Part shown: positions 9,624 through 14,457 of the stretch, piece by piece
Position numbering within the stretch: the first letter of the stretch is position 1
How the letters are laid out: each line of letters starts with the position of its first letter
Source of the DNA: Bacteroidales bacterium
GTDB lineage: Bacteria; Bacteroidota; Bacteroidia; Bacteroidales; P3
Reading direction: 5' to 3'
Length of the DNA: 64,000 bases
Assembly (NCBI GenBank): GCA_017616895.1
Contig: JAFZXE010000019.1
Span: 145,084-209,083, forward strand
Program-made: the position numbers and the translations under genes
The notes under the pieces: model-generated
The model's input: the letters and a program-made list of their open reading frames with translations, nothing else
What the model was told of the DNA's origin: nothing
The model's database searches: none

Positions 9624-10667
9624 TCATCTCACAACGAATCTGGCTGTCTCCATGTGCTTGTCAGCTTTTATTCGCAACAGGTAAATCCCCTTCCCCAGTT
9701 GCGCAACGGGGACGATTCCCTCAGACGAACCTTCCGCCACCTTTTGACCCATCGCGTTAAATATGGCGTAATCCACCGTTTCACAAGTGAGTCCCTTCAG
9801 ATGGATGACATCTGTGGTAGGGTTGGGATAGATGGAAATCTTGGAGCGGGGAGTTTGTGACACGTCGGCGATGCCCACAGCCGGGGTGGTGGGAATGATA
9901 TTCACTATAAGTCCCTCTATCTTCGTCCAGCCGTACGAGAAACCATTGCTATCGGGAATTGGGTACCAATTGTCCCTGCTTCCTCCCCAGCCGAAGTTGA
10001 TATGAAACTTGCCGTCGCTCTCGCGATAGCCGTCAACCACCACGTTGTGTCCGGACCTTCCGTCCGCACTTTCAACGGCCAGATGGGCAGGATAACCGGC
10101 TTGCAGGTTGGCGATTAAAGTGGCGTACATCACCGAGTCGGGTTCACGAAACATTTGGCACTCGCTAAATCCGAAACGCTGATATGCCGCAAAAGCCTGA
10201 TCCACATAGAAGGTGCCCGAGCCGTACGAACTCGATGCAGAATAGACCTGCTTACACGCCACACCGCAAGCAAAAACCAGAGCCGCCGTCATCGAGTCGG
10301 TGAGTTCCTCGCCGCGAACAAAGGCGGCATCGGCCGAATCCAGCAGCATGTTCAACTGCTCGAACGATGGGAACTGGTAAGCCTCCCAATCGTCATCGAT
10401 ATTGAACATCCGGCCAAAGTAATTCCCTGTGGAATAGTCGTCGCCATCGTCAAAGCGAGTGCCTTGCGTCGTTTTCAGATAATTGATTATCTGCCCCATC
10501 GTGACAGCCGGACAACCGGCATAACAATGGTTGTAGTCCTCCAGCGGATCGGCCGGACATAGCATATTGTACGGGTCACCCTGCGTCCAATGCGTGGTGA
10601 GCAGCGGCTGCTGCGCCCATCCAGCCACAGCGCAAAACAAAAATAATACGGTAAACAATTTCGACAT
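9624..10667 (-). CDS. Secreted C10 (streptopain-type) cysteine peptidase with T9SS sorting domain
   Basis: 347 residues. Signal peptide MSKLFTVLFLFCAVAGWAQ, then directly a peptidase C10 catalytic domain: nucleophile in YAGCPAVTMGQI (C52), catalytic His in SGHNVVVDGY (H207), and HINFGWGGSRDNWYP with the conserved Trp. The last about 75 residues (ISIYPNPTTDVIHLKG...GKGIYLLRIKADK...ARFVVR) form a type A T9SS sorting domain, so the enzyme should be exported and anchored or released at the cell surface. Unlike streptopain or interpain, no long propeptide separates the signal peptide from the catalytic domain. Monocistronic, with its own strong promoter and putative operators. Physiological substrate unknown. 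Confidence 0.88.
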   Translation of the reverse strand: MSKLFTVLFLFCAVAGWAQQPLLTTHWTQGDPYNMLCPADPLEDYNHCYAGCPAVTMGQIINYLKTTQGTRFDDGDDYSTGNYFGRMFNIDDDWEAYQFPSFEQLNMLLDSADAAFVRGEELTDSMTAALVFACGVACKQVYSASSSYGSGTFYVDQAFAAYQRFGFSECQMFREPDSVMYATLIANLQAGYPAHLAVESADGRSGHNVVVDGYRESDGKFHINFGWGGSRDNWYPIPDSNGFSYGWTKIEGLIVNIIPTTPAVGIADVSQTPRSKISIYPNPTTDVIHLKGLTCETVDYAIFNAMGQKVAEGSSEGIVPVAQLGKGIYLLRIKADKHMETARFVVR

Positions 10668-10944: not shown

Positions 10945-13257
10945 TTATTTCAAAAACTCATACTTGAACAGTACGGGAACAATCTCTTTCAGGTAGTATT
11001 CTTTGACTTTCTGCTTGAGTGTTGTGATATAAGTGTGCAGTTGGGTGTAGTTGTATTGGGTAACACCGTTGGCGTCCTCGTATGTTGTATCCAGCTCGTT
11101 TATTATCTGATACAAGCCATAATTCCACCTTTTGTCATACTCTTTTGTCTTCTTTGCCTCTTTCAATATGTTTTCCCATAAACCGACCAAAACCTGTTCG
11201 TCGGCGTTCATCTTCATCTTCTTTATGTCGGTTGCGGCAAGTGTATCACCATTGGTTGTGTCGAGAGTGAATTGGTTTCGGTAGGTTCTTTCGTCGCTTC
11301 CAACGAACTCACGACAATGGTTCTGCGTTTCAAAAACGGTAAACAAGAGGCATTTGTACAGGAAATCGTCGCATTTGTGGCTTTTTACATCTTTTCCGAA
11401 CTTAACATATCCATCAGCCGATTTCATAATTCTCGCCCGTTCCGTCCAATAACGATTGTATGTTACATATCTGCTCGCTGCAAACATCGGGAGTTTTTCA
11501 AGGTAGTTGTCTTTGTGGATGTAGAAACCATGACCATCATAACGTCCAGCAACAAGTAGGCTTGACATATTATCAGGATTATCAAATCCCGAGCTATGAC
11601 AAACCAGATATCCAACCATATCGTTGGAATACATTGGCTTTTGAGTGACTTTTTTCCCTCCTGCGCATTCTTTTCCGTCTTTTCCCAATAGCACACCATC
11701 GTTAGCAGACGAATGAAACTTTCGTTTGTCGTAGTATCTCCCGCTATATTTTTCATATATACGTTTTACAGCCAATTTGCCACCCCCAACAATATTTTCC
11801 TCTTTTTTGTCAGCTTGTATGGTTGTCTCTATATCATACGCATCCAAATAAAGCTCCTTTATGTCGTCTTTTTCATTGCTCCAATATATGCACGAAACAC
11901 AGGCATCGATATTTGTGTGGAAATGTCTTCTATTAAATGCAAAACCACCCATAAATTTCTTGTCGACTAATTTTTGCGCCTTCCAATATTTCACAGGAGA
12001 ATACACAATATAGCTATCAGTATCCTGCCTAAGATAAAATTTGAAAGCCGACCAAATAAACACATTTCCCAAATCATTGAGTGTAGTGCCTTTTACTTCA
12101 TCCCGCATCTGAGATACAACCCAACTTTTTTTCCATACAGATGCTTCTTTTGATTTTTTTGCTTTTTGGTGCTCTGTCGATGTTGTATCAGCATATGGTG
12201 GATTTTCGAACAGTATAACCGTACATTTGTCATTATTTAGGTACTGCTGAATGATAGGATTCTCCACATATTCCTGAGTCAGCGCATCAGCACCTAAAAC
12301 CATACCTTTATTGAAGGTGTCTTTGGTTTCAACCGGAGGGATAATGTGTCTAACTTTATCTCCGAGTCGCTCTACAAGAACTCGATACTCGTAATATTCT
12401 ATTGTCGAAAGAATAGTGTGGGAAAGCTCTTCCTCGTTCAGATGTAACTCAAGATTGCCCGTTCCCGCACATCTGTCAAGTATAATGTAGTCGTTTCCTT
12501 GGGGCACACGCTTAATTGCCTCTCGCACAAGTTCCAACGATTTTTCTGCGTAAAGTTCATGTGTGTAGAAAGTTCCGAGGTTCTTTTTCTGAATATTGTC
12601 GTTCAGTTTATCCATTAGGTATCCAAAGGCCTCATTGCTTTCTCCTTTGTATGGATTGATATAATCCTTGAACACATTAGGTTTTCGTATTTCACCAATT
12701 GTTGAATGGAGACCTGTTGCATCTCCGATAAAATCCTCCTTTCGCACATTCAACGACTTGTTTATTCGATAGAAATGCTCTGCCCAACCGACAATACAAT
12801 TCACATCAATGTCAATCTTTGTGTACTTGTTCTCGCGAAGCAACGCAACAACTCTTGCTTGCCCTAAATGTGTGTCCAGATCGATGGTTTCCAAAGGTGA
12901 CTTTCCAACAAAAGAGTTATTATTAGAACTTGCTCCACCGATATAAACTTTCTGAATGTCATCAAGGTAGTCGCTACTATCATACCGATAGCACTTGTCA
13001 TCGTTCAGAGATACAAGAAGTATGTTTTTCGGCACAGGTTTGCCCTTGATTCTCATAACGGACAAATACTTAATCGCCTGAAGCAATGTGTTGTTGAGAT
13101 TTGATATCTGCAATTTGAATTCCAAAATGTTGCCATTGACGACTCCGTCGGTGTAGTCGTTGAGAATCTGATCTTCAGTAAGGCTGGAGTCAACGTTTGG
13201 GAGGTAAACAAGATAGAAACTATCCTGACCTTGTTTTTCATTGGGGTAACTTTTCAC
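10945..13257 (-). CDS. Single-chain restriction-modification protein (PD-(D/E)XK nuclease fused to N6-adenine methyltransferase)
   Basis: 770 residues. The N-terminus shows a PD-(D/E)XK-like signature: TDGVVNGNILEFK (D37, E46-x-K48) followed by LLQAIKYL (Q60xxxY64). The central methyltransferase has GTFYTHE (motif X region, about 228-234), motif I DRCAGTGNLE (261-270) and motif IV ENPPY (N352-Y355), typical of N6-adenine methylation. The C-terminal third has Tyr/Trp-rich segments (SRYVTYNRYWTERARI) probably forming the target-recognition domain. This is the layout of type IIG enzymes, which need no separate restriction gene. The start is GTG; no ATG precedes it in frame. Base composition is clearly AT-richer than neighbours, suggesting acquisition. 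An attenuator-like leader precedes it. Recognition site unknown. Confidence 0.75.
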   Translation of the reverse strand: MKSYPNEKQGQDSFYLVYLPNVDSSLTEDQILNDYTDGVVNGNILEFKLQISNLNNTLLQAIKYLSVMRIKGKPVPKNILLVSLNDDKCYRYDSSDYLDDIQKVYIGGASSNNNSFVGKSPLETIDLDTHLGQARVVALLRENKYTKIDIDVNCIVGWAEHFYRINKSLNVRKEDFIGDATGLHSTIGEIRKPNVFKDYINPYKGESNEAFGYLMDKLNDNIQKKNLGTFYTHELYAEKSLELVREAIKRVPQGNDYIILDRCAGTGNLELHLNEEELSHTILSTIEYYEYRVLVERLGDKVRHIIPPVETKDTFNKGMVLGADALTQEYVENPIIQQYLNNDKCTVILFENPPYADTTSTEHQKAKKSKEASVWKKSWVVSQMRDEVKGTTLNDLGNVFIWSAFKFYLRQDTDSYIVYSPVKYWKAQKLVDKKFMGGFAFNRRHFHTNIDACVSCIYWSNEKDDIKELYLDAYDIETTIQADKKEENIVGGGKLAVKRIYEKYSGRYYDKRKFHSSANDGVLLGKDGKECAGGKKVTQKPMYSNDMVGYLVCHSSGFDNPDNMSSLLVAGRYDGHGFYIHKDNYLEKLPMFAASRYVTYNRYWTERARIMKSADGYVKFGKDVKSHKCDDFLYKCLLFTVFETQNHCREFVGSDERTYRNQFTLDTTNGDTLAATDIKKMKMNADEQVLVGLWENILKEAKKTKEYDKRWNYGLYQIINELDTTYEDANGVTQYNYTQLHTYITTLKQKVKEYYLKEIVPVLFKYEFLK

Positions 13258-13315: not shown

Positions 13316-13450
13316 AAAAAAAACCGCGAGCTTCTTATTTGAAGTCGCGGTTCGGCAAAACCTTATCTACAACAAGAAAAGCTCACGGCATCCGTGAGCG
13401 TTCCCTTTTCTTTTGTAGATAGTATTGAATTTTGCCGATTCCGACTTCAC
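13316..13450 (-). promoter_or_regulatory. Attenuator-like leader (terminator versus antiterminator) of the restriction-modification gene
   Basis: Read on the minus strand: segment 1 GAAGTCGGAATCGGCAAAA (13448-13430); a long hairpin (13421-13364) with stem TATCTACAA/TTGTAGATA and inner GCTCACGG-atg-CCGTGAGC; segment 2 (13360-13341), which ends AACCGCGACTTC; segment 3 GAAGCTCGCGGTT (13334-13322) and eight Ts (13323-13316). Segments 2 and 3 form an intrinsic terminator. Segments 1 and 2 pair over 7 + 8 bp around the long hairpin and would block it. A 27-codon GTG-started frame (KSESAKFNTIYKRKG...) runs from about 13450 through the long hairpin and could be a leader peptide. Confidence 0.7.
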
Positions 13451-13550
13451 AAAGAAAAGCAAAAACGCTTCTAAATTATTTAATTATCGTTTTTTATCTA
13501 TCTCAATCGTTGTAATTTTGGTTAATACTTATCGTTCTATTTACGGTTTG

Positions 13551-13581
13551 CAAAGATACAAAAAGATGGAAAACAAGCAAA
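13551..13581 (-). promoter_or_regulatory. Promoter of the attenuated leader / restriction-modification gene
   Basis: Minus strand TTTG (13578-13581), exactly 19 bases, TATCTTTG (13551-13558). The implied start near 13545 gives a leader of about 230 bases before the terminator. Confidence 0.75.
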
Positions 13582-13617: not shown

Positions 13618-13642
13618 GAACTGTAACAACTGTAACTGTAAC
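13618..13642 (+). repeat. Solitary arm of the palindromic element (TTAC variant)
   Basis: The 25-base segment GAACTGTAAC-AACTGTAAC-TGTAAC equals the right arm of the unit at 13697-13842 with every TGGAAC changed to TGTAAC. It is a direct copy of 14034-14057 and an inverted copy of 13913-13936. Confidence 0.75.
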
Positions 13643-13696
13643 GCACCAAGTCCCCCGACATCAAAAATCCTTATTGACTATTGACTAATGACACGT

Positions 13697-13842
13697 GTTC
13701 CAGTTCCAGTTGTTCCAATTAAAAAATGTGTGCCAATATTCCTTTTGTATACTATATAACTAATTAATATATAAATATTTATATGTTATATAAGTAGATT
13801 GGAACACCTCAAAAAACGAACTGGAACAACTGGAACTGGAAC
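13697..13842. repeat. Palindromic element, TTCC variant
   Basis: Left arm 13697-13720 (GTTCCAGTTCCAGTTGTTCCA + att) and right arm 13818-13842 are reverse complements over 21 bases without mismatch, enclosing about 97 AT-rich bases. A second inner stem, GTGTGCCAAT / ATTGGAACAC, lies just inside. The loop starts AAAAAATG and ends CCTCAAAAAAC, as in the next unit. Confidence 0.8.
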
Positions 13843-13912
13843 GGTTGATAGGGATAATTTCTCCTACAAGGCAATAAATCAGTTATATAGATATGGACAA
13901 CCTATCGATTGC

Positions 13913-14057
13913 GTTACAGTTACAGTTGTTACAGTTAAAAAATGAGTGTCAACTTTTTCTTTATAATATATATAACTTACTAATATATAGATAATTAAAT
14001 AAAATATTGCGAAATCGTAGTACCTCAAAAAACAACTGTAACAACTGTAACTGTAAC
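13913..14057. repeat. Palindromic element, TTAC variant
   Basis: Arms 13913-13936 and 14034-14057 are perfect reverse complements over 24 bases (built from GTTACA words), enclosing a 97-base AT-rich loop that starts AAAAAATGAGTG and ends TACCTCAAAAAAC. Relative to the TTCC unit, each changed base in one arm is matched by its complement in the other arm, so the pairing, not the sequence, is conserved. Confidence 0.82.
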
Positions 14058-14457
14058 GGATGGCGGTAAAAACGTTTGCTTAATATGTGGGTAATCAATA
14101 AGATGACGATTTTCGAGATGTCTTGATTCACAAGTTCTGAACTTCAAATTGGGACAAAAACACACATTTTTCTCTCTAAAAAGCCACAAAATGATACCAC
14201 AAAACCTACTTTTAACACTTTTCAACCCACTTCGAAAGCAAATACGTCTTCCAAAATTTCAGCCATTCGACACCAAAACCGGATGGTTTTTGCAAAAAAC
14301 AACGTGATAGGCAGTCAATATTTGCAAAATTTTTCCTGATTTGGTTGTCGGCTTTTTGTTCTTTTTTTAGAGTTTTTTCTGCTTTTTTGACCGTTTTTCG
14401 GCATAAAAACACCTGTTTTTTGCCCAATTTTAGCCCTTTTAGAGGTGGATTTCGACT

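Follow-up and report, generated by a model that had tools for sequence, protein, structure and literature searches.

Organization of the leader region

This locus raises the question of whether the stretch between a promoter and the gene behind it acts as a transcription attenuator, and whether such an arrangement is confined to a single gene. On its minus strand, the window (the whole analyzed stretch of 64,000 nucleotides) carries a candidate regulated gene, in front of which an earlier note had placed a promoter, a terminator-like hairpin with a U-run, and an upstream segment able to pair over 7 + 8 bp. Re-reading of the coordinates located the promoter, hairpin and U-run on the minus strand as claimed, and the 7 + 8 bp pairing is present as helices P1 and P2 (Table 1). 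The TTTG/TATCTTTG pair was named on the basis of the Bacteroidota promoter consensus. The idea of a leader between promoter and gene, with an intrinsic-terminator-like end, is supported as far as sequence analysis goes.

The fold of 13550-13257, which the earlier note had suggested as a check, is more stable than chance (z −4.6). The stretch 13448-13311 folds at −54.4 kcal/mol (z −7.4), and none of 200 shuffled sequences folds as well. The long hairpin formed by P1–P5, referred to below as the rod, spans 108 nt in the window leader.

Table 1. Elements of the window leader and the gene behind it (window positions; primes in the text denote 3' strands)
Feature	Position	Strand	Description
Promoter, Bacteroidota-type	13551..13581	minus	TTTG 13581-13578 and TATCTTTG 13558-13551
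Presumed transcription start	near 13546	minus	
A-rich leader	13471..13546	minus	about 75 nt, mostly unstructured
TTG-AGA-TAG in A-rich leader	13506-13498	minus	AUG-(0-1 codon)-stop mini-ORF there in many relatives
Segment 1	13452..13470	minus	P0 hairpin (AAGC 13470-13467 / GCTT 13460-13457) and CTTTTC; alternative partner, segment 2 (1:2 duplex, −17.3 kcal/mol)
P1 5' strand	13442..13448	minus	GAAGTCG; pairs with 13347-13341, 7 bp
P2 5' strand	13437-13430	minus	CGGCAAAA; pairs with 13360-13353, 8 bp
S1	13427..13441	minus	GAAT 13441-13438 / ATTC 13430-13427, loop is the P2 5' strand; covariation
P3 5' strand	13415..13421	minus	covariation and partner exchange
Segment 2	13392..13414	minus	P4 5' strand 13414-13405 and P5 5' strand 13398-13392
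Segment 3	13373..13390	minus	P5 3' strand 13388-13382 and P4 3' strand 13381-13373
P3 3' strand	13364..13370	minus	covariation and partner exchange
S2	13349..13363	minus	AGGT 13363-13360 / ACC 13351-13349 around the P2 3' strand 13360-13353
P1 3' strand	13341..13347	minus	in the window copy can also form a local terminator with T, as its 5' arm
Segment 4	13316..13333	minus	T (AAGCTCGCGG 13333-13324) and eight-T run 13323-13316
Terminator-like hairpin	U-run 13323-13316	minus	AACCGCGACTTC/GAAGCTCGCGGTT, then eight T; 58 nt before GTG 13257
Candidate regulated gene	10945..13257	minus	770-aa protein, GTG start 13257

Comparative evidence for two alternative folds

The main set of copies was found with a pattern fixing part of P5 and P4', so that conservation at P5/P4' and in segment 2 partly reflects how the copies were picked; the pattern left P1, P2, P3, S1, S2 and T free. 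The search yielded 128 unique copies, 120 of which were usable (seven without a U-run by the expression used and one near a contig end were removed). With L136 and L141 excluded, 68 copies of less than 87% identity and 160–178 nt in length were kept, and the main alignment (A4) contains 67 of these, L057 being left out as it is without the P0–P1 stretch. Two other sets, A6 and A7, were collected and aligned by means of a rod model, which biases their rod pairs in its favour; T:P5', 1:2, S1 and S2 are absent from that model. Set A6 comprises 21 of 23 matches (17 from other families and four weak own-genome copies), two matches on the opposite strand having been dropped.

In A4 (n = 67), 89.1% of the cells of the rod P0–P5 are paired, and its covariation is 0.492, compared with 0.183 in shuffled (0/500) and at most 0.101 in slid alignments. 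P4 is the weaker helix, with 73.7% of cells paired. Covariation between segments 1 and 2, as numbered in the earlier note and set beforehand as a test, was found in P1, where the own strands pair at −12.3 kcal/mol compared with −4.2 kcal/mol after exchange between copies, the own partner being better in 67 out of 67 copies.

A second arrangement of the same strands is visible in the copies. T is complementary to the P5 3' strand and covaries with it, and the P0 region is complementary to the P4/P5 5' strands. Each strand of P2 is flanked by mutually pairing motifs: GAAAU and AAUUUC around the 5' strand (S1), AGGY and RCCU around the 3' strand (S2; 95.1% paired, mostly invariant). For this fold, designated OFF and tested with P2 included as a kissing contact, 90.3% of the cells are paired, with a covariation of 0.273 compared with 0.150 in shuffled (0/500) and at most 0.103 in slid alignments.

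Partner-exchange tests on 117 copies, which like the shuffle tests ignore relatedness among copies, gave −13.98 for the own T:P5' pairing against −10.46 after exchange (116/117 copies better), −7.45 against −6.47 for segments 1:2 (98/117), and −7.80 against −5.91 for segments 1b:2b (96/117), each at 0/1000. Within single sets, the values were 17/1000 for 1b:2b in A6 and 2/1000 for T:P5' in A7. S1 gave 0/1000 over all sets and was not significant in A7 alone (137/1000), and S2 gave 2/1000 over all sets and was not significant in A6 alone (539/1000). G.U cells exceed A.C cells in T:P5' (125:13), P5 (55:9) and P0 (42:6), which indicates that the transcript strand is the folding strand; no G.U excess was observed in P3 (12:18) or S1 (10:21).

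Two folds that exclude each other had been proposed in the earlier note, and since both covary across copies, the comparison argues for mutually exclusive terminator and antiterminator folds. The pairing assigned to the terminator needs to be revised: T:P1' does occur in the window copy, but family-wide the partner of T is the P5 3' strand. In the 67 copies, T:P5' averages −15.0 against −13.5 after exchange (60/67 better), and T:P1' averages −6.2 against −5.0. T:P1' was rejected as a family-wide terminator (median local energy −4.8; 37/67 copies beat their row mean), yet its own mean beats all 1000 exchanges. T:P1' may be relevant for some of the copies, among them the window copy, whose local T:P1' terminator hairpin is the strongest among the 67 aligned copies (−15.6, next −15.2).

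Predicted energetics of the folds

In the window copy, the predicted duplex energies are −17.3 (1:2), −19.7 (T:P5') and −18.3 kcal/mol (T:P1'). Equilibrium folding of the growing RNA gives 1:2 a probability of 0.89 when the RNA ends at 13390; in longer RNA, 1:2 gives way to P5 (0.99) and to the rod (P1 1.00 at 13340). When the RNA ends at 13322, T pairs with the P1 3' strand (0.72) and P2–P5 stay intact. T:P5' has a probability of 0.00 at equilibrium in this copy. For the window copy cut after five T and folded without the 5' leader, T:P1' reaches only 0.19 instead of 0.72, so that the balance varies with the stretch taken for folding.

Minimum-energy folding yields the rod in 62 of the 67 copies, and T:P5', when forced, lies on average 13.4 kcal/mol above it; the loop of T:P5' is long, with about 50 nt between the arms. 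A probability above 0.5 was obtained for P1 in 55 of these copies, for T:P5' in one, and for T with the P1' region in four. Because T:P5' is not the ground state, the OFF fold would need a factor or kinetic capture of 1:2.

Distribution of the RNA family

The earlier note overlooked both the pairing of the P0 region with the P4/P5 5' strands (segments 1 and 2 of Table 1) and the repetition of the leader in its own genome. BLAST with the window leader gave 11 matches in that genome, itself included. Six copies (window, C9, C12, C10, C22 and C17) have the whole rod and T, and each forms the long hairpin from a different sequence; the other five contain only parts of the promoter, leader and P0. 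Covariance model R1 detects 13 matches in the same genome at E ≤ 0.1, ten of them at E ≤ 1e-3 and six at 140 bits or more.

At E ≤ 1e-3, R1 matches of this structured RNA family, which is about 170 nt long, are found in 58 out of 81 relatives (own genome counted). These include 47 out of 49 genomes of the same genus (own included) and 11 out of 32 genomes from other families; 21 matches lie in one of these genomes. In a phylum-wide sample, 30 out of 296 genomes have a match at E ≤ 1e-4, 29 of them in the class of the window, Bacteroidia: the own genome, one of the same order and 27 of the same class. The match from another class (G347, L248, 54.3 bits) is a candidate member. The S1/P2 block and the P5 motif persist in most rows of the phylum-scan copies, as does a T-rich run preceded by a CCACGC-like T.

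A pattern for the apical hairpin occurs in 21 out of 61 genomes, all of the window's genus, and its reversed form has no match in the same 61 genomes. In a public genome set, at least 112 contig stretches contain the pattern; the 80 matches listed are nearly all from Bacteroidales or Bacteroidetes metagenome-assembled genomes, many of rumen or gut origin. The exact apical pattern was not found in viral_contigs, and no blastn match of the window leader was obtained in plasmid and phage records; carriage by viruses, plasmids or phages was dismissed on these searches.

The promoter box accompanies the element: TAnnTTTG lies within 110 nt upstream in 92 out of 120 copies, compared with 5.0 expected from mononucleotide shuffles (maximum 14). 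Two copies (the first one of L136, and L141) look chimeric, with the 5' half of one leader type and the 3' half of another, and their junctions lie inside the conserved apical hairpin. These chimeras may be due to recombination or to metagenome assembly error.

Genes downstream of the leader

A gene on the same strand follows 99 out of 112 testable copies, at a median distance of 53 nt; three copies are followed by an opposite-strand gene and ten have none within 500 nt. In the other two sets, a same-strand gene follows 18 out of 20 and 23 out of 29 copies.

The 770-aa protein encoded behind the window leader contains DRCAGTGN and NPPY, seen by eye and presumably motifs as in N6-methylases, and an N-terminal E-x-K; it is a putative single-chain restriction-modification protein. 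Searches with this protein of Pfam, NCBIfam and PADLOC at 1e-3 and of PDB sequences at 0.1 gave no match, and an AlphaFold model built from three sequences has a mean pLDDT of only 30.1. Among five loci with more distant relatives of this protein, R1 matches one (L253, 143.7 bits). At one of the other four, a 60% homologue in genome G012 is preceded by an apparent, far-diverged leader (L255:2850-3075) missed by R1; the elements AAGCATTTGC, GCTCACGC/GCGTGATGC and GCATCGCGC before TTTCTTTTT can be seen there by eye, and the fold has a z of −5.3. Downstream of the putative restriction-modification gene, the window encodes a protein of the Peptidase C10 family that carries a type IX secretion tail (9624-10667, minus strand).

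The scan of downstream proteins covered 88 out of 96 non-redundant ORFs (those of L042, L069, L088, L099, L103, L121, L131 and L149 were left out). The matches, in overlapping sets, include ResIII (10), DEAD (9), N6_Mtase (6), SNF2 (6), MmeI_Mtase (5), Por_Secre_tail (5), LRR_5 (4) and PLDc_2 (4); PADLOC models of the helicase and methylase types each have matches in up to nine members. By a crude N-terminal rule applied without a background rate, 45 out of 88 proteins look exported, and 14 out of 88 contain the N6-methylase motif, also without a background rate. It appears from these assignments that about half of the family genes code for exported or surface proteins, and many for restriction-modification or other defence proteins. 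The earlier note had suggested that read-through could delay nuclease production on entry to a new host; with 45 of the 88 examined family genes looking exported by that rule, such a delay is excluded as the role of the family in general.

Ten proteins chosen from 23 ORFs listed in the phylum scan include five SusC-type TonB receptors (Plug domain) and two ECF-like sigma factors. These RNA copies, in another order of the class, precede the receptor genes at L224, L225, L230, L237 and L238 and the sigma factor genes at L229 and L233. In the own genome, a leader-gene-leader-gene order is seen at L009:6736-7816, L011:5248-6511 and L013:5184-6508, where a leader lacking the rod and T precedes a RhuM-, DinD- or YhcG-type gene, behind which comes another leader with its gene. 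Another rod- and T-less leader (L012:5431-5537) precedes genes for an Eco47II-type endonuclease and a C5-methylase.

Open reading frames in the leader

The 27-codon GTG frame from 13450, reported earlier as running through the hairpin, exists, but it shows no sign of being conserved across copies and was discarded as a leader peptide, not being a feature shared among the 67 copies. With lax start codons, an open frame of some kind runs through the hairpin in 35 out of 67 copies (a count without shuffle control), and an ATG frame of at least 20 codons is present in 14 and absent from 53 of the 67.

A much shorter frame lies upstream of P0. This mini-ORF (AUG, 0–1 codon, stop) lies at most 75 nt, mostly 26–45 nt, before P0. 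In the main set, 21 out of 67 copies have it (mean of 10.7 and maximum of 18 in 200 dinucleotide shuffles), and in A6 15 out of 21 copies do (shuffled mean 4.7, maximum 9), namely in 14 of the 17 other-family copies and one of the four weak own-genome copies. No excess was found in the phylum-scan set (3/29 compared with 4.8 shuffled). The start and stop are constant and the middle codon is variable (ACA, ACT, GCA, AAA, AGA, GAT, ATA and others); L014, L015 and L200–L214 provide examples. The mini-ORF may sense initiation or ribosomes.

Relation to known regulatory RNAs

In attenuators of the trp type, four segments follow each other in the order 1-2-3-4, pairing either as 1:2 and 3:4 (the terminator) or as 2:3 (the antiterminator), with a U-run after segment 4. 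The leader described here has the same segment order, the same alternatives and a U-run after segment 4. Unlike in trp-type leaders, no conserved leader peptide with control codons was found, segments 2 and 3 lie at the tip of the 108-nt rod with about 50 nt between segments 3 and 4, there are extra hairpins with complementary loops (S1/S2), and the RNA is not tied to one pathway. Riboswitch and T-box leaders are likewise multi-copy 5' leaders with mutually exclusive folds, standing before several genes per genome; in contrast to these, the genes downstream of the present RNA share no metabolic theme, no ligand candidate was found, and there is no Rfam match.

Multi-copy RNAs have been described in the phylum. 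According to PMC11697453, FopS of Bacteroides is transcribed from a sigma-ABfr-type promoter and reaches as many as 15 copies in a genome; it has a single-stranded 5' seed and one terminator hairpin, its trans targets are susC mRNAs, and it has been deposited in Rfam. The present RNA resembles FopS, as described there, in being a multi-copy Bacteroidota RNA with this type of promoter, but it forms the long rod P1–P5 directly before its own gene and has no Rfam match. Membership in FopS was rejected, as the rod is present instead of a seed with a single terminator hairpin. For Flavobacterium psychrophilum, PMC9723704 describes 64 structured 5' regions and Rfp18, a genus-conserved structured sRNA. 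These provide an in-phylum precedent, likened here by description and not by sequence, and Rfp18, in contrast to the present leader, is described there as an independent sRNA.

No Rfam 15 family reaches the gathering threshold on the element, only tRNAs reaching threshold; below threshold, a plant miRNA model scores best on the window element (26.1 bits, cut-off 107), and elements of seven further loci have no Rfam match at E ≤ 1. A literature search of titles and the beginnings of abstracts revealed no recognizable description of this RNA. Thus, the family is apparently undescribed in the sense of having no Rfam 15 match and not being met in the literature, with the lists in PMC8040213 and the non-Rfam motifs in PMC2864571 lying outside the comparison.

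Proposed mechanism and alternative explanations

Sequence comparison shows the helices of both states, a promoter box, a U-run and a co-directional gene. The attenuator-like anatomy suggested earlier is supported by the comparison, is widened from one gene to a family, and is corrected in its key pairing. The window leader probably (at a probability of about 0.68) belongs to a multi-copy RNA that acts in cis as a transcription attenuator with two states. Its segments would correspond to those of the trp attenuator, with P0 as 1, the P4/P5 5' strands as 2, P5' as 3, and T with the U-run as 4. In the ON state, the rod P1-P2-P3 would bring segments 2 and 3 together (P4/P5), T would be left without a conserved partner, and the polymerase would read through. 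In the OFF state, segment 1 would hold segment 2, S1 would be formed, and the freed segment 3 would pair with T as the terminator; the loops of S1 and S2, i.e. the two P2 strands, could still kiss. As segments 1 and 2 can already pair while segment 3 is still to be transcribed, a factor that holds the early conformer would switch the gene off; without the factor, the ground state is predicted to be the rod. The window copy would have a second, local terminator, formed by T and the P1 3' strand. Termination at the U-run, the default state in cells and the factor are what we infer.

It is unlikely that the rod is instead mainly an element of mRNA stability or translation, protecting the 5' end or spacing the start codon, with T and the U-run incidental or weak. 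The rod has the lowest energy of the folds in 62 of 67 copies, read-through would be the default, and the upstream mini-ORFs hint at ribosomes on the leader. However, T is a conserved segment whose covariation with P5' extends over 116 of 117 copies, and a T-rich run comes after it in the aligned copies; 1:2 covaries too, and a pure stability rod requires neither. A stand-alone small RNA, whose own promoter and terminator-like end would delimit a unit of about 230 nt and whose gene would be reached by leaky read-through only, is improbable as well, even with multi-copy sRNA families such as FopS (PMC11697453) known in Bacteroides. A co-directional gene stands close behind 99 of 112 copies and an opposite-strand gene behind only three, no seed is shared because the P1–P3 sequences differ between copies, and homologous genes keep the leader (L091 and L128, both by set selection, and L253).

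That the hairpin acts as DNA, in the manner of an attC-like recombination site or a mobile inverted repeat carrying genes, is very improbable. Three places in the own genome with a leader-gene-leader-gene order, and two copies that look chimeric inside the apical hairpin, would suit such a site, but the chimeras may be assembly errors, promoter and gene orientation are fixed, and the searches of viral_contigs, plasmid and phage records gave no match. An attC-like DNA hairpin was also rejected on the pairing itself, as the sense strand carries G.U rather than A.C cells in T:P5' and P5, an excess that P3 and S1 do not have.

Returning to the attenuator, a broader reading is tentative and, on balance, doubtful: the family might form a class-wide post-initiation regulon governed by a single RNA architecture, a kissing-loop attenuator with two conserved partners for most of its strands. 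One read-through decision would be shared, and in many copies the mini-ORF would sense ribosome or initiation status. Its members would be restriction-modification and other defence proteins, lipoproteins and T9SS-exported proteins, with SusC-type transporters and ECF sigma factors in other orders. If this is true, bacterial surface and anti-phage defences would have a common switch at the RNA level. Riboregulation in Bacteroidota is sparsely mapped, and the family would offer one control point for phage defence and cell-surface make-up. The covariation left by both folds would make it a natural test bed for the prediction of RNA switches from sequence alone.

Repeats upstream of the promoter

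Just upstream of the window promoter, a 25-nt repeat (AACTGTAACAACTGTAACTGTAACG) is found at 13619-13643, 13819-13843 and 14034-14058, with a near-inverted copy at 13910-13941. Sequence similar to this repeat also occurs upstream of the leader copies in L009 and L014. The same region of the window contains a direct repeat of 121 nt (13697-13817 and 13913-14033; 74% identity), which is AT-rich and has inverted arms.
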